Shown in pieces: positions 1-27,653 of a stretch of DNA of 50,076 nt (positions are counted from its first letter, which is position 1; the number at the start of each line of letters is the position of its first letter). The position numbers were made by a program, and so were the translations under genes. Below the pieces are notes generated by a model. It searched no databases. It was given only the letters and a program-made list of their open reading frames with translations, and had not been told where the DNA came from. The DNA is taken from positions 1 to 50,076 of the forward strand of contig JADMKQ010000007.1 of the NCBI GenBank assembly GCA_015478735.1, written 5' to 3'. Source of the stretch: Sphingorhabdus sp. GTDB lineage: Bacteria; Pseudomonadota; Alphaproteobacteria; Sphingomonadales; Sphingomonadaceae.

Positions 1-630
1 AAGCACCGGAGCCTTCTTACCAGCATCAAAAGCGGGAGTTGCCAGAGTTTTCGTCTGTGTAGGCAGGTTTGGAACCTGCTTTGCATCCACCTTGGCATCG
101 GGCTGTTCTGAACCCCGCTTAGGTGAACCTACTATCATCGTGGCTTTGGTCTGCGTTTCGTCAACTGTATTGGCATATTGGCTTGCCAGAGGTTGCAGCG
201 CCGAAACTATCTGTGTGCTGTGCGCTGGAACGGGAACAGGAGATGGCGTAGCTTCAACCTCCACATTCCCGACGGCACCATTTTCAGTGGTTGTTTTTTG
301 TGCTGAAAGCGTCAGCCCGATGGATTTCGCGGGATTGACTTCGCCGAGAGGTGCAAGCGACACATCGTCACTACCGATCAGCTGGTTCAGAAACTGCTCG
401 ACATCGGGCTTGGCGCTGTGATCCTTCAGACCATCTTTCACGCCATCCTTCAACGCACCGCTTTTCAGTGCCGCAGCGGCATTGCCGGACGCGGGGCGCG
501 TCCGGTTTTCACCGGAAAGCAGAAGGGAGCTGAACTCGTTATTGGCGGTGCGTGTTTCCATATCCGCAGGCTTTGCAGAAAGCATGCCAATTATGGAGTG
601 GGAAGCCTCCGACAATATCTTACCAATCAT
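1..630 (-). CDS. fliK: Flagellar hook-length control protein FliK, N-terminal part (runs off window)
   Basis: Minus-strand frame open from ATG at 630 (MIGKILSEASHSIIGMLSAKPADMETRTANNEFSSLLLSGE...) to the window edge; Pro/Ala/Thr-rich, directly after fliJ, as expected for FliK. Assigned mainly by synteny. Confidence 0.7.
   Translation of the reverse strand, partial: MIGKILSEASHSIIGMLSAKPADMETRTANNEFSSLLLSGENRTRPASGNAAAALKSGALKDGVKDGLKDHSAKPDVEQFLNQLIGSDDVSLAPLGEVNPAKSIGLTLSAQKTTTENGAVGNVEVEATPSPVPVPAHSTQIVSALQPLASQYANTVDETQTKATMIVGSPKRGSEQPDAKVDAKQVPNLPTQTKTLATPAFDAGKKAPVL
574..589 (-). promoter_or_regulatory. Sigma54-like element inside the 5' end of fliK
   Basis: Minus strand TGGCATG-CTTT-CTGCA; 180-220 bp downstream (transcriptionally) of the tandem palindromes in fliJ. 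Confidence 0.4.
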
Positions 631-1066
631 CGCGGCAATCCTTCCTTTTATTATTACCTATATTATACAATATGTTATGCCTGATATCCGTCTTGAATAT
701 TTCTGCTCGGCGAGCCTTTTTAAGACTGGAATGGAACAGCTTCTCGGTGCTTTCATAGGTCGTCCGGGCGGCAAGATTTTGCCGCTCTGCATGGGCAAAA
801 TCTTGCCGTGCCGTTTCTATCGATGCCTCTATCGACCGTTCCGCATCGACCAGCCTTCCTGAAAGCTCCATCCGGGCGGACAACATGTCAGCGTCCACCG
901 CCTCGACATTGCTCAAAGTCTCCGTGTGAAGCTTTTTGATCCGGCTTTTGTTATGCTCCAGAACCGCGCAGTGATTATGCGCCTTGGCCAGCGCGAGCTC
1001 CTTCAGCTTCTTTTGCGTGTCCCGCACCTTCAAAATGCGTTGCAGCCCTTTCACCTTGCGTTTCAT
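620..1066 (-). CDS. fliJ: Flagellar export protein FliJ
   Basis: 148 aa coiled-coil protein (MKRKVKGLQRILKVRDTQKKLKELALAKA...) directly downstream of fliI. Confidence 0.82.
   Translation of the reverse strand: MKRKVKGLQRILKVRDTQKKLKELALAKAHNHCAVLEHNKSRIKKLHTETLSNVEAVDADMLSARMELSGRLVDAERSIEASIETARQDFAHAERQNLAARTTYESTEKLFHSSLKKARRAEIFKTDIRHNILYNIGNNKRKDCRDDW
769..808. promoter_or_regulatory. Tandem CGGCAA-N4-TTGCCG palindromes inside fliJ (candidate activator site)
   Basis: CGGCAA-GATT-TTGCCG (769-784) and GGGCAA-AATC-TTGCCG (793-808); together a 15-bp perfect inverted repeat with a 10-nt loop. Confidence 0.5.
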
Positions 1067-2421
1067 GTCTGAAACAGACCGAATAGATCGCTGATGCTTT
1101 GCCGGAAATTGATAAGCTCACGGGGCTTTTGGCGCAGGTAATTTACCATGACCGGCCACTGGGCCAAAGCCTCGTCAATGCTCGGATCGCTCCCCGCCTG
1201 GTAAGCACCCATCAAAACAAGATCGCGGTTTGACTCGTAAATCGACCAAAGCCGCCGGAAATGCGTCTGGGCAGCATGATGATCTTCATCAATAATATCG
1301 ACCGCGACGCGGCTGATCGATTTTCCGACATCAATAGCCGGGAAAATGCCCTGCTCGGCCAGAGAGCGCGACAATATGATATGCCCGTCGGCAATCGCGC
1401 GGGCATTATCGACCACCGGATCGTCAAGATCATCGCCATCCGCAAGCACAGTGTAAATGGCTGTGATCGAACCGCCGGTCTGACTGTCATTCCCTGCTCT
1501 TTCGATCAGGCGCGGAATCAGCGACAAGGCGGAGGGCGGATAGCCCTTCATTGTCGGTGGCTCTCCCGCTGCCAGTCCGATCTCGCGCTGGGCATGGGCG
1601 ACGCGGGTCAGGCTGTCGATCACCAGCACAACCGATTTTCCCTGCGAGCGGAAATATTCTGCAATGGCCGTTGCGCGGTGAGCGGCCTTTAACCGCGAAG
1701 AGGGCGAATGGTCCGCTGGGACAGCAACCGTTATCGTCGGCACGGCATCTTTCTTTGCGTTGCGGCGGTTGACGAAATCATTTACCTCTCGCCCGCGCTC
1801 ACCGATCAGGCCTACGACGACGACATCGGCGACCACGCCGTCGAGTATCTGGTTAATCAGCATGGATTTACCCACCCCGGAACCGGCGATGATCGCAACC
1901 CGCTGCCCCTGACCAAAGGTCAGCAATCCGTTGATTGCCCTGATGCCCATATCAATCGGCTTGGACACGCTGGCGCGGCGCATGACATTGCCTTCCAGTC
2001 CGGATAGCGGCACGGTGTCGGTCGTCAATATCGGGCCTTTGCCGTCAATCGGTTCCCCCATCGGGCCAATGATCCTGCCAAAAAGTGCGTCTCCGACAGC
2101 GGCTTCGTTCGATTTTGCATAAGGCAGCACCGGACTTCCGCTTCTTAGCGGCGCATCCTGCACCATCGGAATCATGAGTGTGCGTGAACCTTTGAAGCCC
2201 ACCACTTCGGCGGTGATCTCCCGCCCGTCGGTGGCAATCACCCGGCCGGAATAACCCAGAGGATAGGGAAAGCCAGTGACCTCCAGCATGCCATTATCAT
2301 GCGCGGAAAGTTTGCCGACATGGCGCGGCTCGTTACTGATATGTTCAATACGCGCCAAAAGACCCTGTATGCCTTTGCCGCTCACAGGGTCGGAGACGAA
2401 ACCATTTGTCGCTTCCGTCAT
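1063..2421 (-). CDS. fliI: Flagellum-specific ATP synthase FliI
   Basis: 452 aa; Walker A region GQRVAIIAGSGVGKSML, GLIGERGREVNDF, SLTRVAHAQREIGLAAGEPP typical of FliI/T3SS ATPases. Confidence 0.97.
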   Translation of the reverse strand: MTEATNGFVSDPVSGKGIQGLLARIEHISNEPRHVGKLSAHDNGMLEVTGFPYPLGYSGRVIATDGREITAEVVGFKGSRTLMIPMVQDAPLRSGSPVLPYAKSNEAAVGDALFGRIIGPMGEPIDGKGPILTTDTVPLSGLEGNVMRRASVSKPIDMGIRAINGLLTFGQGQRVAIIAGSGVGKSMLINQILDGVVADVVVVGLIGERGREVNDFVNRRNAKKDAVPTITVAVPADHSPSSRLKAAHRATAIAEYFRSQGKSVVLVIDSLTRVAHAQREIGLAAGEPPTMKGYPPSALSLIPRLIERAGNDSQTGGSITAIYTVLADGDDLDDPVVDNARAIADGHIILSRSLAEQGIFPAIDVGKSISRVAVDIIDEDHHAAQTHFRRLWSIYESNRDLVLMGAYQAGSDPSIDEALAQWPVMVNYLRQKPRELINFRQSISDLFGLFQT

Positions 2422-3152
2422 GGCTGCTGCCCGGCATCATCGGGTTGCTCGCTGCTGAATTCGTCGATCAGGGCACGCAATTCTTCCAGCACGGTTTCGG
2501 ACCCTCTTTCGATCCAGCCGCCGGCGTGGCTTAGTTTCAGATTGCCGCGAAGCATGGACGGATCGGCGCGCAACGGGACTTTGCACAAATCCCGGTCGAT
2601 CAGTTTCAGATCATCGGGATGCAGGATCAGGCTCGCGCCCTTCTGGTCCTGATCAATCCTGTCGGCCAGTTGCACTGCCCAGGCCTGCAACAAGAGCGGA
2701 TCAGGCATAGCAAGTTCGGAACAGCGGCGGAAAAGCGATTCAATCGCATTGAGGATTAGCGAAAAGCTGCCCGTGGAATAAAGGTCGTTCACATGGCGTA
2801 TAGCATCGGCCAGCACCAACGCGGCCTGACCGTCAGCGGCTCTTTCTTCGGCCAATGCTGCTTGCCCGTCTTCCCAGCCTTTGCGATAAGCCACTTCAAA
2901 AATATCCGGCTCCAGATCGGGCGTTGGCATGGTGGGTTCAGGGGCAGCGGCAGGTTTATCAAAACTTTGGAACTGGTGCCCGGAATGTGAGCCTGCATCC
3001 GCCGACAGATTTCCGAACCATGCGGAAAACTCTTTCTGCTCCACCGGCATACGCCAGAGCGGTGCAACATCGGCATGGGCGCTATCGGCCCTCTCATCCG
3101 GGAACGTCTCGTGAAGATTTTGCTCGATATAGAGGTCAGACATAATCGGCAC
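2418..3152 (-). CDS. fliH: Flagellar assembly protein FliH
   Basis: 244 aa between fliG and fliI; C-terminal FliH-like segment (LILHPDDLKLIDRDL...). An internal start at ~3143 (MSDLYIEQN) is possible. Confidence 0.8.
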   Translation of the reverse strand: MPIMSDLYIEQNLHETFPDERADSAHADVAPLWRMPVEQKEFSAWFGNLSADAGSHSGHQFQSFDKPAAAPEPTMPTPDLEPDIFEVAYRKGWEDGQAALAEERAADGQAALVLADAIRHVNDLYSTGSFSLILNAIESLFRRCSELAMPDPLLLQAWAVQLADRIDQDQKGASLILHPDDLKLIDRDLCKVPLRADPSMLRGNLKLSHAGGWIERGSETVLEELRALIDEFSSEQPDDAGQQP

Positions 3153-4194
3153 CGCCAGTCGTCATGCTGATTTCGCCATTGTCGATCATTATCTTGGCAA
3201 TCTCGATAACGCCTCTTTGTGCGCTGATGACCGCTTCCATGGGCTGCGGCGGAGTTTCGTCCATTTCATCCTGTATAGTTTCGGCAGCGCGCTGAGACAT
3301 GGCAGCGAAGATTTTCGCTTTCAATGCGCTTGGTGCGCCGCGCAAGGCGGGAACCAGTATGGCATTATCAACCTTGCGGACGACGGTGCCGATATCTTTG
3401 CTCGACAGGTTCATCAGGTCGGCGAAGACGAACATTTCATCCTCGATCTGGCGGCCGATCTGCCGGTTGCGCTTGGCCAGTCCTTTGAGGACCATCTGGC
3501 TCATCTGCTTCGGCAGGTTGTTCACGATAGAGGCGCTCTCCATCACACCGCCAATTTCCATGGGCGGGATAATCTCTTCCGCTGACGGTCCGTTATCTTC
3601 GAGCAACGCATGGATCTGGGCCAGCGCGTGGGCGCTCACCGGTGCCAGGGTCGCGACCCGGTAAATCAGCTCTTCCTGCAATTCAGGCCGCACAAGCTGT
3701 AACATCTCTGCCGCCGCTTCCGGTGTCATAAAAGAAATCAGGACGGCAGCAATTTGCGGCGGTTCGTTTTGTACCAGCTCGGCAATATCCCTGGCCGAAA
3801 TCCATTTCAGCAAGCTCGCGATATTGCTTGGCCGTTTGGGCGCAAAGCGGTTCATCATATTTTCCGCTCGTGGGGTGCCAAGCGCTTGCCGGAAAACCCG
3901 CCCTACTTTCTCGTCGGACTTATAAGCCAAAGTCGTCTGGGTTTTGACCAACTGCAAAAAGCGGTTCAGCGACCCTTCAATTTGCACAGCATCGACATCG
4001 GCAACGCTGAACATCGCCTCGCCCAGCATTTCCGCTTCTTCTGGTTCAAGCCGTTCGAGTATTTTCGCGGCTTCTTCATCATCGAATAGCAGCATCAGGA
4101 TCGCGGCGGTTTGCTTGCCGGTCATCAATTCGAGTTGCTGGTCATTTTCGTTGACGTTCTTACCGTCTTTCATCGCCGCCTCAGCCATTAGCAT
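3136..4194 (-). CDS. fliG: Flagellar motor switch protein FliG
   Basis: 352 aa; LMTGKQTAAILMLLFDDEEAAKILERLEPEEAEMLGEAM and EEIIPPMEIGG...VMESASIVNNLPK are FliG-like. Confidence 0.96.
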   Translation of the reverse strand: MLMAEAAMKDGKNVNENDQQLELMTGKQTAAILMLLFDDEEAAKILERLEPEEAEMLGEAMFSVADVDAVQIEGSLNRFLQLVKTQTTLAYKSDEKVGRVFRQALGTPRAENMMNRFAPKRPSNIASLLKWISARDIAELVQNEPPQIAAVLISFMTPEAAAEMLQLVRPELQEELIYRVATLAPVSAHALAQIHALLEDNGPSAEEIIPPMEIGGVMESASIVNNLPKQMSQMVLKGLAKRNRQIGRQIEDEMFVFADLMNLSSKDIGTVVRKVDNAILVPALRGAPSALKAKIFAAMSQRAAETIQDEMDETPPQPMEAVISAQRGVIEIAKIMIDNGEISMTTGGADYV

Positions 4195-5932
4195 CCTCCA
4201 GCGTGTCCGCTTCTTTCAAAAGTTCTTTCACCACCAGCGCAGCATGGTCTGGATTCTGCCTGACAAAATTCTGGGTCAGCAAAGCTCGTTCCTGGTAACT
4301 GGGCGCTGCCTGGATCATGTCGATCGTGACAGGTGCTTCATCCAGCCGCGCCGGTGCAGCAGTGTCATCCTGCCCCTCGCCGTCCTGTGCGCCTTCACCA
4401 AGCAAGCCGCCATTGAGCGATTTCAGCTCTCCGCCGGTCATAAGACTGCCAGCCACCATATCGGTTTTCCGGCTCTTTTCAGCGTTCAGCCACTTTTTCA
4501 GTATCGGCCGGGCGATGACAAAGATGATGAGCAAGGCGACGACAAGCGCGGTCAGATTGCGGCTCACTATTCCGAACCAGGGGGTTTCATACCATGGTTC
4601 TTCGACAGCTTTTTCAGTCACCGGGCGAAATTGCCGTGCCGAAACCGCAATCTGGTCACCGCGTTCTGCGTTAAATCCAACCGAGCCCTTGATAAGATTT
4701 TCGATTTCCTGGATCTCTTTGGGTGACTTGGCGTTTTTCAACACTTTGTCATCAATCGCCACTGCAACCGACAGGCGCGAAACCTGCCCCGTTGCCTGGT
4801 TGATAACCGCTATTTCGCGGGCCAGTTCAAAATTGCGCTTATATTCTTCGCTGGTTTTTGTCGCGTCGGTCTGGACATTTCCTTGTTCTTCAAGCCCTTC
4901 GGCCTGATCCTCAAACTCCGCAGCAGCGGGTGGGCGGTTGGACAAAGCGCCCGGTATTCCGCCCGGTTGCGGACCACCTGCCGGTTCTTCTGAGCGCATA
5001 CCCTGTTCAGAGCGCAGGACCGAACCGTCGGTGGGATAGGTTTCGCTGGTCGCCTGTTTCTCGTCAAAGTTCACATCGGCGGTGACTTCGGCAACAAAAT
5101 TTCCGGCACCGACTATCGGCGTCAACAGGCTTGCCAGAGACTGGCGATAGCGGTCTTCTATAGCCGCTTTAATCTTTAACTGCGTGTCATTGATGCGCGC
5201 GCCATCGTCTTCGCGGCGCGAAAGCAGTCTGCCGTCCTGATCGACGACCGAAATATTCTCGGTGGAGAGGCCGGGCACAGAGCTTGCGACCAGGTTTAAT
5301 ATGGCCTGTGTTTGCTTCTCGTCCAGTTGGGTGGAGCCGGTCAGTTGTAAAATGACAGACGCTGCCGGTTCATTCCGTTCGCGCAGGAAAATGCTGGGCT
5401 GTTCAACGGCGAGATGCACTCTTGCAGACAAGACATTATCCAGCGCCTCGATTGAGCGCGCCAGATCCATTTCGCGTGAAAGCTTCAGTTTTTCCGATTC
5501 AACCGCACGGCTCGCGCCCATTGGCATGCTTGATATTATGCTGTCGCTGCTGGGGGCAGAACGCGGAAGCCCCTGCCCTGCCAGTTCGATCTTGGCGGTG
5601 TGGTAATCCGCTTCCGCGACCATCAGAGTGCCTGTCGAATGATCGACCTCATAAGGGATGTTCGCGCTTTGAAGCGCCTGCATCACTGCTGATTTATCAC
5701 CGTCGGGCAATCCGCGGAACAAGTCACGCTGGTCCGGTTCACGCAGGACCAGCCACGCGGACAGAGCCGCAATGACCACGGCGGAAAGAATGATCAGCGG
5801 CATTGCCCGCGCAATGGCGGGCTGCTGAGTGAAGGATTTGATCGAACCCAATATACCGCCTGCTCCGGGCGCATTTGCACCCGCCCCGGTGAGCGGCACG
5901 AGATTCTGGTTTATGGTTGCTTCCTGGGCCAT
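4181..5932 (-). CDS. fliF: Flagellar MS-ring protein FliF
   Basis: 583 aa; FRGLPDGDKSAVMQALQSANIPYEVD, LSREMDLARSIEALDNVLSARVHLA, C-terminal TM and FliG-binding tail. Confidence 0.97.
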   Translation of the reverse strand: MAQEATINQNLVPLTGAGANAPGAGGILGSIKSFTQQPAIARAMPLIILSAVVIAALSAWLVLREPDQRDLFRGLPDGDKSAVMQALQSANIPYEVDHSTGTLMVAEADYHTAKIELAGQGLPRSAPSSDSIISSMPMGASRAVESEKLKLSREMDLARSIEALDNVLSARVHLAVEQPSIFLRERNEPAASVILQLTGSTQLDEKQTQAILNLVASSVPGLSTENISVVDQDGRLLSRREDDGARINDTQLKIKAAIEDRYRQSLASLLTPIVGAGNFVAEVTADVNFDEKQATSETYPTDGSVLRSEQGMRSEEPAGGPQPGGIPGALSNRPPAAAEFEDQAEGLEEQGNVQTDATKTSEEYKRNFELAREIAVINQATGQVSRLSVAVAIDDKVLKNAKSPKEIQEIENLIKGSVGFNAERGDQIAVSARQFRPVTEKAVEEPWYETPWFGIVSRNLTALVVALLIIFVIARPILKKWLNAEKSRKTDMVAGSLMTGGELKSLNGGLLGEGAQDGEGQDDTAAPARLDEAPVTIDMIQAAPSYQERALLTQNFVRQNPDHAALVVKELLKEADTLEDANG

Positions 5933-5933
5933 A

Positions 5934-6326
5934 TTATACCGGCATGTTCATGATGTCCTTGTAGGCGGACAGAAGCTTGTTCCGTGCCTGCAAGGTGGAT
6001 TCAAAGCCGATCGAGGCTTTATGTTTGGACAGCATGACCGCCGCGACATCATTGGTTTCACCCATCTGATAGGCTGTCATATTGTCTTTCGCTGTGACCT
6101 GAAGCCTGTTCACTTCCTGAATGGCGTCGGTGAGCTGCGCGGCAAATGCCCCGCCGGGAGCGCCAGAACTTTCTACGCCACCTATGCCGGAAGTCTTGCC
6201 GGTTTGCGGCCCCTGACCAATGCCGGACAGATTTGCCGATTTGCTAGCAATATCCTGCAGCGCATTATTCTGGTTCAGGATCGCATTGCGCGCCGCCATC
6301 AGGCTGTTCATATTAACGGAAGACAT
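5934..6326 (-). CDS. fliE: Flagellar hook-basal body complex protein FliE
   Basis: 130 aa; FAAQLTDAIQEVNRLQVTAKDNMTAYQMGETNDVAAVMLSKHKASIGFESTLQARNKLLSAYKDIMNMPV is the FliE C-terminus. Confidence 0.95.
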   Translation of the reverse strand: MSSVNMNSLMAARNAILNQNNALQDIASKSANLSGIGQGPQTGKTSGIGGVESSGAPGGAFAAQLTDAIQEVNRLQVTAKDNMTAYQMGETNDVAAVMLSKHKASIGFESTLQARNKLLSAYKDIMNMPV

Positions 6327-6340
6327 AATCTATCTCCTGC

Positions 6341-7549
6341 TCACGCCGCGAGCGCACGCATATCGGCCATCCGATAGCGTAACGTGCGTTCCGAAATGCC
6401 AAGTTCTTTGGCAGCTTCGCGGCGGTTGCCGTTGGTTTGTTCAAGGGTTTTGGTGATCGCGTCATATTCAACGCTCTTGGAAATGGACTGCAGGTCGCGT
6501 CCGCGCAGGAACCGTGCCGAGCTGCCAGGTTGAACCACATCCTGCTTCGGACCGGAGGACAGGCTTTCGCCAGAGAACATAAGGTCCCTGGCTTCGATAC
6601 GATCGCCATCACACATGACGAGAGCACGCTGGAGCACATTGGCAAGCTCGCGAACGTTACCTGGCCAGTGATGCGCTTTTAACCGCTCGATGCAGCATTG
6701 CGACAAAGAGACAAATTTATCCTGCCCTTTCTGGAAGTCCATCATCATGAAAGCGGAGATGGCGACAATATCGGCGGGGCGGGAAGCAAGTGGCTCCAGC
6801 TCAACCGGCATGACATTCAAACGCCAGTAAAGGTCTTCACGAAATGTGCCGGCTTTGACTTCTTCGGCAAAGTTGCGGTTGGCAGCGCAAATGATGCGAA
6901 CATCGATTTTTTCATGGCGCGTTGCACCGACGGGGAGGATTTCACCTTCTTGCAGCACGCGGAGCAGCTTTGACTGGCTCTCCAGAGGCATCTCGGTAAT
7001 CTCGTCGAGGAATATCGTGCCACCGTCCGCTTCCTTGAACAGGCCAATGGCGCTGGCATAGGCTCCGGTAAAGGCACCTTTCTTGTGACCGAACAGGATA
7101 GATTCAATCATCGTTTCGGTGATCGCCGCACAGTTTACGGTGACAAGCTGTTTATCAGCACGCGCGCTATTCTCGTGAATATAGCGCGCCACGCCTTCCT
7201 TGCCTGTGCCGGTCTGGCCGGTAATCATGACATTGGCGTCGCTACGCGCCACGCGGGCAGCATATTTATAAAGGGCTATGGACTTGGGGTCTGCAAAAGC
7301 AGGCCCCCTGCCCCCACGCATGGATTCGATGATGCACGACAGACCAAATAACTTGTCGGCCTCGCCAAATTCAATGCGCGGGGGTTGGCTGAGGGTAGCC
7401 GGAACAAAACGAAATGGCCCGTCGCGATAGATGACGACGGGGTCTTTTGGCGATGATGCTTCGGAGTGGAGGGGTTCAACACTCGCCAGCATATCAACAA
7501 ACTCTGGGAACCTAGAGACCAGGCTAGATTTTAATGTATTGTTGACCAT
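6341..7549 (-). CDS. Sigma54-dependent flagellar transcriptional activator (FlbD/FleQ-like AAA+ and Fis HTH, no recognisable receiver domain)
   Basis: Walker A GQTGTGKE, sigma54-contact loop GAFTGA, GGTIFLDEITEMP, C-terminal Fis-type HTH NGNRREAAKELGISERTLRYRM; adjacent to fliE and flagellin. Confidence 0.95.
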   Translation of the reverse strand: MVNNTLKSSLVSRFPEFVDMLASVEPLHSEASSPKDPVVIYRDGPFRFVPATLSQPPRIEFGEADKLFGLSCIIESMRGGRGPAFADPKSIALYKYAARVARSDANVMITGQTGTGKEGVARYIHENSARADKQLVTVNCAAITETMIESILFGHKKGAFTGAYASAIGLFKEADGGTIFLDEITEMPLESQSKLLRVLQEGEILPVGATRHEKIDVRIICAANRNFAEEVKAGTFREDLYWRLNVMPVELEPLASRPADIVAISAFMMMDFQKGQDKFVSLSQCCIERLKAHHWPGNVRELANVLQRALVMCDGDRIEARDLMFSGESLSSGPKQDVVQPGSSARFLRGRDLQSISKSVEYDAITKTLEQTNGNRREAAKELGISERTLRYRMADMRALAA

Positions 7550-7617: not shown

Positions 7618-7633
7618 CGCAATCCGCATGCCA
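7618..7633 (-). promoter_or_regulatory. Sigma54-like -24/-12 promoter upstream of the activator-fliE...K operon
   Basis: Minus strand TGGCATG-CGGA-TTGCG, one mismatch to TGGCACG-N4-TTGC; 69 nt upstream of the CDS start at 7549. Confidence 0.7.
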
Positions 7634-7675: not shown

Positions 7676-7743
7676 CTGTCGGTTTCCCGACAGGAATGTC
7701 GGAAACCGGACAGTCATTTTCGGTCCCTGTCGGAGAACCGACA
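7676..7743. promoter_or_regulatory. Array of three TGTCGG-N3/4-CCGACA palindromes between the activator gene and flagellin
   Basis: CTGTCGG-tttc-CCGACAG (7676-7693), TGTCGG-aaa-CCGGACA (7697-7712), TGTCGG-agaa-CCGACA (7728-7743). Confidence 0.65.
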
Positions 7744-7770
7744 TTTTTTTGATTAATTATTTTCAGGCCC

Positions 7771-7778
7771 GCCGTTAA
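7771..7778 (+). promoter_or_regulatory. Possible sigma28 -10 element for flagellin
   Basis: GCCGTTAA versus GCCGATAA consensus; the -35 region (ATTAATTA) is a poor match; about 73 nt upstream of the flagellin ATG. Confidence 0.4.
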
Positions 7779-7851
7779 CTCCAATGAGGCCGCTTCAAGG
7801 GACGAAGTGACCCACTACAAACGACCATGTATTTGTGAAAAGGATGTCACT

Positions 7852-8667
7852 ATGACTGTAATAGGAACTAACGTAACGGCCCTGCGTACCAGCTATGCTT
7901 CTAACCAGGCTGAAATGGGTCTTGCACGTTCGATCGAGCGCCTCTCGACCGGTAGCCGTATCAACTCCGCAGCGGATGATGCCGCCGGTAACGCCATCGC
8001 AACCCGTATGACCTCGGAAGTGCGCGGCCTGAACATGGCGATCCGCAATGCAAATGACGGTATTTCTCTCGCCCAGACCGCAGAAGGCGGCATGAACGAA
8101 ATCACAACCATGTTGCAGCGTATGCGTGAGCTGTCTGTTCAGTCTGCCAACGGCACGCTTTCCGACAGCGACCGGGAAAACCTTCAGACCGAAGTTACCG
8201 CTTTGATCGCCCAGGTTGGTGATGTTGCAACACGGACGACTTTCAACGAAGTGTCATTGCTTGACGGCACCAACGCGACAATCAACATCCAGACCGGCAG
8301 CAGCGCAAACCAGACCGTAGTCATTACACTGGAAGATGTCAGTGCCGCGACACTTGGCGTTGATGCGCTGGATATCAGCACCGAAGCTGGTGCAACAGCT
8401 GCGTTGACTGCTCTGGATACCGCTCTGGATACAGTGACCACGGGTCAGGCAAATCTGGGTGCATCACAGAACCGTTTGGAAGCCACGATCTCCAACCTGT
8501 CCGACCGCGTAGCCAACACCATGGAATCGCGTTCGCGCATCATGGATGTCGATTTCTCGGCTGAAACCACTGAACTGGCGAAAAACCAGATCCTGAGCCA
8601 GGCTTCTACCGCTATGCTCGCGCAGGCTAACCAGTCACAGCAATCGGTGTTGAGCCTGCTCCGCTAA
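7852..8667 (+). CDS. fliC: Flagellin
   Basis: ORF 7807..8667; most likely start is [18 protein letters not shown] at 7852. N-terminal [23 protein letters not shown] and C-terminal [25 protein letters not shown] are classic flagellin. Confidence 0.97.
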
Positions 8668-8746: not shown

Positions 8747-9469
8747 TTACTGGTTTGATCCCATCGCGGCCTGCAATTTTTCCAGAGCGCGTTTTTTGAT
8801 CTGGCAGATACGCACGGACGATACGTCCAGAACTGCCCCGATTTCATCAAGCTGCATTTCCTCGATAAAATAACAGTTGAGGACAAGCTGTTCCCGTTCG
8901 GTCAGCTTCTTCAGATTTTCCGCGAGCAGCCGGACCATCTCTTTCTTTTCCAGCGTTTCGTGCTGGTCATCCTCTTCATTGGTGAACCAGCTACTGGAAT
9001 CGCAATAGACTTCATCAAGTGAATCAACATGAACATCAATGGCGCGATCGGCATTTTTGCGAAACTCCGCCTGATCCATGCCCATAGCGTTCGCAAGCTC
9101 GACCTCGCTCGGTTCATAGCCGTTTTCCTGAGCCAGTTGTTCGCTAACCCGGCGCAGGTTTTTGTTCCACTCCACCGCGCTTCTGCGCAGGTTGCAGCTT
9201 GAGCGGAGATAGTCGATCATCGCTCCGCGGACGCGGACATATAAATAGGTGCTGAAGCTGTGCCCCTGGTCAATATATTTGGCGGCGGCCTCCACCATCG
9301 TCACAAGGCCGACCTGGATCAGATCCTCAAGCTCAACATGGTCGGGCGAGAATGCCTTAATCTGCCAGGCAATTCTGGTTACCAGACCCTGATGCTCCTT
9401 GACCATATTCGTCTCGTCGACCTGCATCGCACCATAAGCTTGAGAGACTCTGTTTTTCGTTTGTAACAT
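8747..9469 (-). CDS. fliA: RNA polymerase sigma factor for flagellar operon FliA (sigma28)
   Basis: 240 aa; sigma70-family region 2 (DLIQVGLVTMVEAAAKYIDQGHSFSTYLYVRVRGAMIDYLRS) and region 4 (LTEREQLVLNCYFIEEMQLDEIGAVLDVSSVRICQIKKRALEKL). Confidence 0.95.
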   Translation of the reverse strand: MLQTKNRVSQAYGAMQVDETNMVKEHQGLVTRIAWQIKAFSPDHVELEDLIQVGLVTMVEAAAKYIDQGHSFSTYLYVRVRGAMIDYLRSSCNLRRSAVEWNKNLRRVSEQLAQENGYEPSEVELANAMGMDQAEFRKNADRAIDVHVDSLDEVYCDSSSWFTNEEDDQHETLEKKEMVRLLAENLKKLTEREQLVLNCYFIEEMQLDEIGAVLDVSSVRICQIKKRALEKLQAAMGSNQ

Positions 9470-15267: not shown

Positions 15268-15304
15268 CGGCAAGATTCTTCCGCTCACCGGCAAAAACTT
15301 GCCG
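15268..15304. promoter_or_regulatory. Candidate activator site upstream of flgB
   Basis: CGGCAA-AAAC-TTGCCG perfect at 15289-15304 with a degenerate copy CGGCAA-GATT-CTTCCG at 15268-15283, 21 bp apart; ends 86 bp before the -24 element. Confidence 0.6.
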
Positions 15305-15389: not shown

Positions 15390-15405
15390 TGGCACGTCGT
15401 TTGCG
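15390..15405 (+). promoter_or_regulatory. Sigma54 promoter upstream of flgB operon
   Basis: Plus strand TGGCACG-TCGT-TTGCG, full match to the TGGCACG-N4-TTGC core. Confidence 0.85.
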
Positions 15406-26186: not shown

Positions 26187-27278
26187 TCACAGATTACTGG
26201 AATATTTCAGCACACTGTTACGCCCTTTGGACTTCGCTTCGTAAAGCGCCAGATCAGCTTTCCGCAGGATTGAGCGCTTTGTGTCCGACTTCAGACATTT
26301 GGCTACACCGGCGGAAAAAGTAACTTTCCCAAGCGGGCGACCGGATTCCAGATCAATCAGTTGACGACGGGATAAGTTTTCCCGGCATTTATCCACTTTT
26401 TTGACGACTTTGTTAATGTCGCTATCTTCAAAAATTATCGCAAATTCTTCGCCGCCATAGCGGGACGTGTGGCATTTGCTGTTCGACATGGATGACAGCT
26501 CATCAGCGATCAGCCTTAATACCCGGTCTCCACAATCGTGGCCAAATTCGTCATTTATCGCCTTGAAGTGATCAATGTCGATAAAGACCAGAACCAGTGC
26601 CCGCTCATCGCCAATGAGTTTTTCCAACACCTCATCCAGCGTCCGTTCAAATTTCCGCCGGTTCGGCAGCTTGGTCAGCTGATCAAAATCGGCATCATTT
26701 CTGGCTTGCTCCAATTCGGCATGCAAAATTTCGAGCTTCTTGTTGGTCGCAGAGATTTGCGCACGGTTTTCCCTGGTCGTTTCAATCATCAGCTCCGATA
26801 GGCTCAGCAGTTTCTGAACGGTCGCATCCAAGTCAAGATCGCCTGTGCGCGCCCGGATATGACCGGCCTGTTCGATTAGACTGTCTTCCCATTCCAGCGT
26901 TGCTTTTTCGCCATGATCGATCGATTTCGTAGTCGTGCGAATGTGGGCAATCGCTTCGGTTAAAATCTTGTCGATTTGCATGCCGATGTCGGAGCGCAGA
27001 TATTTGTCATGCAGTTCCCGCGCCGCCACATTATCAAGCCGGCCGGCGCAGGACAGGCCGCGTATCTCGCTTTTCAGGGCAGCCTTACCGCCGCAAATAT
27101 ATTCCCATGCCAATTCAAGATTGGCCGAAGACAATATAAGTCCGTGCTGCCGGATGAAACCGGCAATATCGAAAAGCGGCGAACGCTCACCATCTGTTTT
27201 GATACAAACCGGGCACGCATCATCGCCATTTTTGTCGCTGAAATAAGTTTCCAGTATATTTTTGATATCGAGTTTCAC
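26187..27278 (-). CDS. GGDEF-domain diguanylate cyclase
   Basis: 363 aa; DQLTKLPNRRKFERTLDEVL, FIDIDHFKAINDEFGHDCGDRVLR, SRYGGEEFAIIF. Confidence 0.94.
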   Translation of the reverse strand: MKLDIKNILETYFSDKNGDDACPVCIKTDGERSPLFDIAGFIRQHGLILSSANLELAWEYICGGKAALKSEIRGLSCAGRLDNVAARELHDKYLRSDIGMQIDKILTEAIAHIRTTTKSIDHGEKATLEWEDSLIEQAGHIRARTGDLDLDATVQKLLSLSELMIETTRENRAQISATNKKLEILHAELEQARNDADFDQLTKLPNRRKFERTLDEVLEKLIGDERALVLVFIDIDHFKAINDEFGHDCGDRVLRLIADELSSMSNSKCHTSRYGGEEFAIIFEDSDINKVVKKVDKCRENLSRRQLIDLESGRPLGKVTFSAGVAKCLKSDTKRSILRKADLALYEAKSKGRNSVLKYSSNL

Positions 27279-27653
27279 TTCATATCCTCAATCTGGCGCA
27301 ATATGTCAGATGCGTCATCCGGTTAGGGATTGTCCTCGTCCCGCAATGGTTAACGGCAGATCAGGGAAGCGATTAAGTGCCTGTCCCCAGCATTCTTCGA
27401 GGGTGCAAGTATTTGCTCAAATCACAAAACAGTTCGGCGCCAAGACAAGTAAGTCATCCAAGCCTGATACTTATGATATAATATTTTACATTTGGCAGTC
27501 TGTATTATTGTTGAAGGCTGAACTATCCTCAATTATGCGGCTTCAACTATGCGAGTAGTCCCCCGATAAAAGCAAGTTTCTGTTTCAGATTTTCGTTTGC
27601 AACCGCGGCATAGGCCAAAAGCCAGTCATGCTGCCGAGAAAAGGCATTAGATA

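Follow-up and report, generated by a model that had tools for sequence, protein, structure and literature searches.

The 302 bp intergenic region between a flagellar activator gene on the minus strand and a flagellin gene on the plus strand contains palindromes of the type TGTCGG-N4-CCGACA, and the question was which regulator might read them and which of the two genes it might serve. The region is part of a stretch of 50,076 nucleotides of Sphingorhabdus sp. (contig G000:C7), which is called the window below. The original prediction had described three inverted repeats, two perfect and one imperfect, with starts at 7677, 7697 and 7728 and spacings of 20 and 31, upstream of a sigma54 element at 7633-7618 on the minus strand. 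The repeats were confirmed in the sequence, and also their position, about 44-110 bp upstream of the element. The features of the region are the following:

7677..7692, no strand: palindrome site 1, TGTCGGTTTCCCGACA, perfect
7697..7712, no strand: palindrome site 2, TGTCGGAAACCGGACA, one mismatch, reads GTC-N8-GAC
7728..7743, no strand: palindrome site 3, TGTCGGAGAACCGACA, perfect, the best conserved of the three
7618..7633, minus strand: sigma54 promoter element TGGCATGCGGATTGCG of the activator operon, conserved across the genus
6341..7549, minus strand: activator gene, encoding a FlbD-like sigma54 enhancer-binding protein (EBP) of 402 aa without receiver domain (Pfam Sigma54_activat and HTH_8)
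1063..6326, minus strand: fliE, fliF, fliG, fliH and fliI, downstream of the activator (FliE and FliF by Pfam, the rest by ORF content and order)
620-1066: fliJ, after fliE-fliI (by ORF content and order)
7753..7778, plus strand: FliA-like flagellin promoter TTAA-N14-GCCGTTAA (by pattern match and conservation only)
7852..8667, plus strand: divergent flagellin gene (Flagellin_N and Flagellin_C)
8747..9469, minus strand: fliA (sigma28), a later step of the cascade (TIGR02479, above its cut-off)

The activator has a Fis-type HTH, and its best NCBIfam match was FlbD, with 317.6 bits against a cut-off of 750 and thus below the cut-off. The activator gene and fliEFGHIJ presumably form one operon. 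Upstream activating sequences of sigma54 promoters are palindromes located about 50-150 bp upstream of the -24/-12 promoter, and the centres of the three sites lie within this range, at 51.5, 71.5 and 102.5 bp upstream of the TGG of the sigma54 element. A scan of the 2.67 Mb draft assembly, which had been proposed together with the original prediction, revealed the exact motif TGTCGG-N4-CCGACA at only two places, both of them in the array. When up to one mismatch was allowed, 15 places were found in the genome, three of them in the array, and the 12 others compare with nine for a reversed control pattern. In simulations with the same length and dinucleotide make-up, three 6-N4-6 palindromes sharing one motif, whatever its sequence, occurred once in 3000 rounds. 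The array is not a product of chance. All three sites contain the GTC-N8-GAC frame, a 14 bp inverted repeat, of the FleQ-type box; its AT-rich interior, GTCAAT-N2-ATTGAC, is replaced by GG-N4-CC.

For the alignment across relatives that had likewise been proposed, 20 genomes of the same genus with a close activator orthologue were used, including G000 itself; a named relative within the genus is Sphingorhabdus sp. EL138. The three sites at spacings of 20 and 31 were present in all 20 genomes, and in all of them the sigma54 element and the flagellin promoter were kept beside the array. Mean column identities of the half-sites were 0.90 for site 1, 0.91 for site 2 and 99.6% for site 3, versus mean identities of 0.54-0.71 for the linkers and the stretch from site 1 to the sigma54 element. 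A more distant member of the genus (G014), whose activator is 56% identical, has two such sites.

The cluster contains a second type of palindrome, CGGCAA-N4-TTGCCG, which is exemplified in the window by a tandem pair upstream of flgB:

15268-15283 and 15289-15304, no strand: tandem CGGCAA-type sites from the motif scan, the first with two mismatches, the second perfect
15390..15405, plus strand: sigma54 element upstream of flgB, read as served by the CGGCAA sites

Relative to the flgB sigma54 element, the two sites are located 93.5 and 114.5 bp upstream. It had been claimed that the motif of the array is unlike these palindromes, and this held for the sequence as well as for the phyletic pattern. 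CGGCAA-N4-TTGCCG, often in tandem, occurs in flagellar clusters with and without a FleQ-like EBP (G129, G280, G272, G252, G089), and it is best read as the predicted site of the activator itself, by analogy with FlbD and the ftr elements in Caulobacter. The possibility that TGTCGG and CGGCAA form one degenerate motif was scanned for and rejected, because the two track different proteins. At 769-784, the coding region of fliJ contains a further perfect CGGCAA-N4-TTGCCG. Such a palindrome is present at a similar distance from the activator in several relatives, and it may therefore act as an internal enhancer of the genes downstream.

A search for sigma54 activators revealed a second EBP without receiver domain in the array-bearing genomes:

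G000:C146:8141-9202, minus strand: FleQ-like EBP of 354 aa (Pfam domains)

It follows genes that read as fliK, fliL, fliM, fliN, fliP, fliR, flhB, fliD and fliS (FliS and the EBP identified by Pfam, the other genes by ORF content and order). In complete relatives it is encoded about 16 kb from the activator; in the draft G000 this distance and the adjacency are deduced from these relatives, because the EBP is on contig C146 and the activator on C7. The first 163 bp of the window (1-163) overlap the start of C146 (L269 3-165) in the fliK region with about ten differences; an exact join of C7 and C146 was not found, and the imperfect overlap suggests a strain mixture or a repeat at the assembly break.

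The FleQ-like EBP was present in all 20 array-bearing genomes of the genus and in four additional genomes without the activator. Its best solved relative is FleQ of P. aeruginosa (8p53, 8e-82), with an alignment that spans the AAA+ domain and the HTH (GVVSKAARSINIKRTTFIDKMRKH against GVVARAAERLRIRRTTLVEKMRKY), and it has both the AAA+ sigma54 interaction domain and the FleQ-type HTH that mark the FleQ/FlrA family. The 354 aa protein begins at the AAA+ domain, a Pfam match to the N-terminal FleQ domain was absent, and two arginines of the c-di-GMP pocket are missing (FleQ R144 and R185 align with S12 and D53). We infer that it works like FleQ, yet it was not classed as FleQ. The FleQ consensus is GTCaNTAAAtTGAC, and arginines of the HTH helix have been proposed to read the GxC ends of the site (PMC6120874; PMC10723142). 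According to a ChIP-seq study, this consensus explains the in vivo binding of FleQ only in part (PMC6120874), and a match to GTC-N8-GAC alone is therefore weak evidence.

Co-occurrence across the family was analysed in two sets of genomes. Set 1 comprised 26 other genomes of the family with the activator, in which the region upstream of the activator was scanned for sigma54 elements before the EBP was searched for. A sigma54 promoter preceded the activator gene in 14 of 14 EBP-positive and in none of 12 EBP-negative genomes; one genome of this set, G134, had one weaker EBP match without FleQ-type HTH. The same picture was obtained with the 40 genomes of set 2, in which an element with a score of at least 10/11 was found in 14/14 EBP-positive versus 0/26 EBP-negative genomes. 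Taken together, the 66 genomes contained no exception (28/28 versus 0/38). Related genomes within a genus make such counts overstate independence, and thus the split at the genus level, 11 EBP-positive versus 15 EBP-negative genera, is the fairer number. Absence of the EBP was defined as no match better than 1e-72 (set 1) or 1e-77 (set 2), and the assemblies were mostly more than 90% complete. Of the 28 EBP-positive genomes, 20 had GTC-N8-GAC at a distance of 30-150 bp upstream of the sigma54 element, compared with a mean of 0.8 and a maximum of 6 in 2000 rounds of shuffling; in the other eight the strict form was missing at the expected place. The sites in other genera range from CGTCAATAAAATGACG, which is AT-rich, near the Pseudomonas consensus and situated at the same place, to CGTCGGCTTTCCGACG and TGTCGGATTCCCGACG. 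The outer bases vary, with CGTC...GACG at homologous sites in relatives and other genera, while GTC...GAC is invariant. CtrA sites were considered as an alternative wiring of the EBP-negative genomes and were not supported: CtrA-like patterns were present in one of the 28 EBP-positive and in one of the 38 EBP-negative genomes.

Natural deletions are provided by four relatives (G003, G025, G017 and G011) that have lost the flagellar cluster around the activator. In the remnants, the C-terminal part of flhA and fliA are followed by a palindrome pair, then by the sigma54 promoter and a decayed activator start, and finally by a FliS-like gene and the FleQ-like gene. In G003, G025 and G017 the two palindromes are spaced by 30-31, at about 71 and 101 bp from the sigma54 element; a counterpart of site 2 is kept in these three genomes, and G003 retains the 20/31 triple. 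In G011 bases have changed, with GTC-N8-GAC intact at both sites. Therefore, the presence of the sites follows that of the FleQ-like gene and of the sigma54 promoter rather than that of flagellin or the activator protein.

At the remnant loci (L265 6445-9687, L266 4332-8899, L267 3453-8085 and L268 6326-11065), the four relatives keep open genes for the FleQ-like EBP, FliA, the FliS-like protein and a C-terminal FlhA piece (FHIPEP about 255-655), and fliF is absent in three of the four. This gene set may have another use.

The comparative evidence thus supported the original proposal that the activator gene answers to a second regulator, distinct from the one at the CGGCAA sites, and it pointed to the FleQ-like EBP. 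Very probably, the array serves as upstream activating sequence for the sigma54 promoter of activator-fliEFGHIJ and is bound by the 354 aa protein encoded on C146, at the far end of this flagellar cluster; the protein would head a cascade of four classes.

Three other explanations were considered. In the first, the activator would bind the array upstream of its gene and thereby amplify its own sigma54 promoter. The activator belongs to the EBPs and has a Fis-type HTH, its gene adjoins the array, and activator and array co-occur in the genus. However, both the sigma54 promoter and the sites are missing at its orthologues in the 38 EBP-negative genomes of the family, the sites survive where the activator gene has decayed, and the motif that accompanies the activator everywhere is the other one, CGGCAA-N4-TTGCCG, which sits at the flgB sigma54 promoter. 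Such an autoregulation is thus very unlikely.

Slightly less probable still is a different binder, either another EBP, e.g., the paralogue at C12:3964-4980 or a NifA-type protein, or a factor that is not an EBP. The HTH of the paralogue (RRTTFVEKM) is similar, but complete genomes with the array, among them G007, G013, G029 and G010, yielded no such paralogue, and other groups of EBPs are also present in genomes without flagella or without the array. TGT-N10-ACA is the consensus frame of NifA. The perfect sites fit it, but T and A at the outer positions vary in other genera, in contrast to GTC...GAC. An invariant TGT-N10-ACA of a NifA upstream activating sequence, which would fit the three sites of the window, was therefore rejected on the homologous CGTC...GACG sites.

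The least likely explanation is that a regulator bound to the array mainly controls flagellin by activating or repressing the abutting FliA-type promoter: the end of site 3, the best conserved one, is indeed some 10 bp away from the probable -35 element (7753), and the distance of this site to the flagellin promoter is nearly fixed, but divergent flagellin genes also adjoin activators without an array (L223-L226, L229, L231, L233, L234), the array persists where flagellin is gone, and in the flagellin-less remnants the sites hold their fixed distance to the sigma54 element. The claim that the array also serves flagellin could thus not be upheld as a main role; a secondary effect on the abutting promoter may exist.

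The comparisons show the conservation, geometry, co-occurrence and genomic rarity of the sites; a model of binding, oligomer formation, DNA looping and regulatory direction can be proposed with the FleQ-like EBP as the probable binder. The protein would occupy the GTC-N8-GAC palindromes as dimers, through its Fis-type HTH. With two or three dimers on the same side of the helix, oligomer assembly would be favoured, and looping of the DNA would bring this oligomer to sigma54-RNA polymerase at 7618-7633. The FleQ-like EBP would represent class I, and the operon of the activator plus the export and basal-body genes (fliEFGHIJ) would be class II. Promoters with CGGCAA-N4-TTGCCG, putatively bound by the activator, would form class III, and FliA genes such as flagellin class IV.

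The circuit is of a known kind, with a shortened FleQ and a GC-rich site. It shares with P. aeruginosa the GTC-N8-GAC frame, which is common to the array and GTCaNTAAAtTGAC, and FleQ as class I regulator drives early flagellar operons through sigma54, as is proposed here for the EBP on C146. In contrast to FleQ, this EBP has neither the N-terminal FleQ domain nor the pocket arginines R144 and R185, the interior of its putative sites is GG-N4-CC instead of AT-rich, and it apparently has one target promoter in the genome. In the Fla1 system of Rhodobacter sphaeroides, a FleQ-type EBP and sigma54 act on the operon of a second EBP gene (fleT) followed by fliEFGHIJ (PMC7277832), which is similar to the layout proposed here. 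However, FleT forms complexes with FleQ on class III promoters, while the activator of the window carries an HTH itself and apparently reads a motif of its own, CGGCAA-N4-TTGCCG. Two successive EBPs are also found in Vibrio, where FlrA and then FlrBC act with sigma54 on early and then middle flagellar genes (PMC3930126), but FlrC works as a response regulator together with a kinase and the activator described here has no receiver domain. The latter also distinguishes it from FlbD, its best NCBIfam match, which acts on the ftr elements of middle flagellar genes in Caulobacter (PMC3930126); the role of ftr fits the CGGCAA sites, whereas the TGTCGG array is not the motif of the activator.

The accounts of flagellar control in sphingomonads that were found lean on the Caulobacter scheme; in Sphingomonas sp. 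WG it has been described with CtrA, FlbD and FliX (PMC8921679). A literature search with little reach into subscription journals yielded no study of FleQ in sphingomonads. The sequence comparisons indicate that a large part of the family would instead use a FleQ-like class I regulator with its own predicted binding site. A candidate protein, its site and its target are named, and therefore the hierarchy is directly testable. The clean split into EBP-positive and EBP-negative genomes also provides a natural series in which to follow how one master regulator replaces another while the gene cluster itself stays conserved. It is tempting to speculate, with more doubt than confidence, that sphingomonads rely on a FleQ-like master regulator in shortened form, which lacks the N-terminal domain and two of the c-di-GMP pocket arginines and is dedicated to a single promoter, that lineages swap wirings by joint gain or loss of regulator, sigma54 promoter and sites, and that lineages without flagellum keep the regulator and its sites, perhaps repurposed.

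Several additional observations were made. The second FleQ-like paralogue of G000 (G000:C12:3964-4980, L275) has an identity of 50% and RRTTFVEKM in its HTH. Contig G000:C116 (L276) carries a second fliF and also a CGGCAA palindrome (C116:15186), and paralogue and second fliF probably belong to a second flagellar system. The 5' leader of the flagellin gene (7780-7851) is strongly conserved in the genus, with a mean column identity of 0.885, and GAGGCCGCTTC within it is retained even in the distant G014; the leader is possibly an element of post-transcriptional control. The only other match to the FliA-like promoter pattern in the window besides the flagellin promoter was found at 27376 (TTAA...TGCCGTTAA), at a GGDEF-like gene on the minus strand (26187-27278), which perhaps encodes a diguanylate cyclase of the late class.
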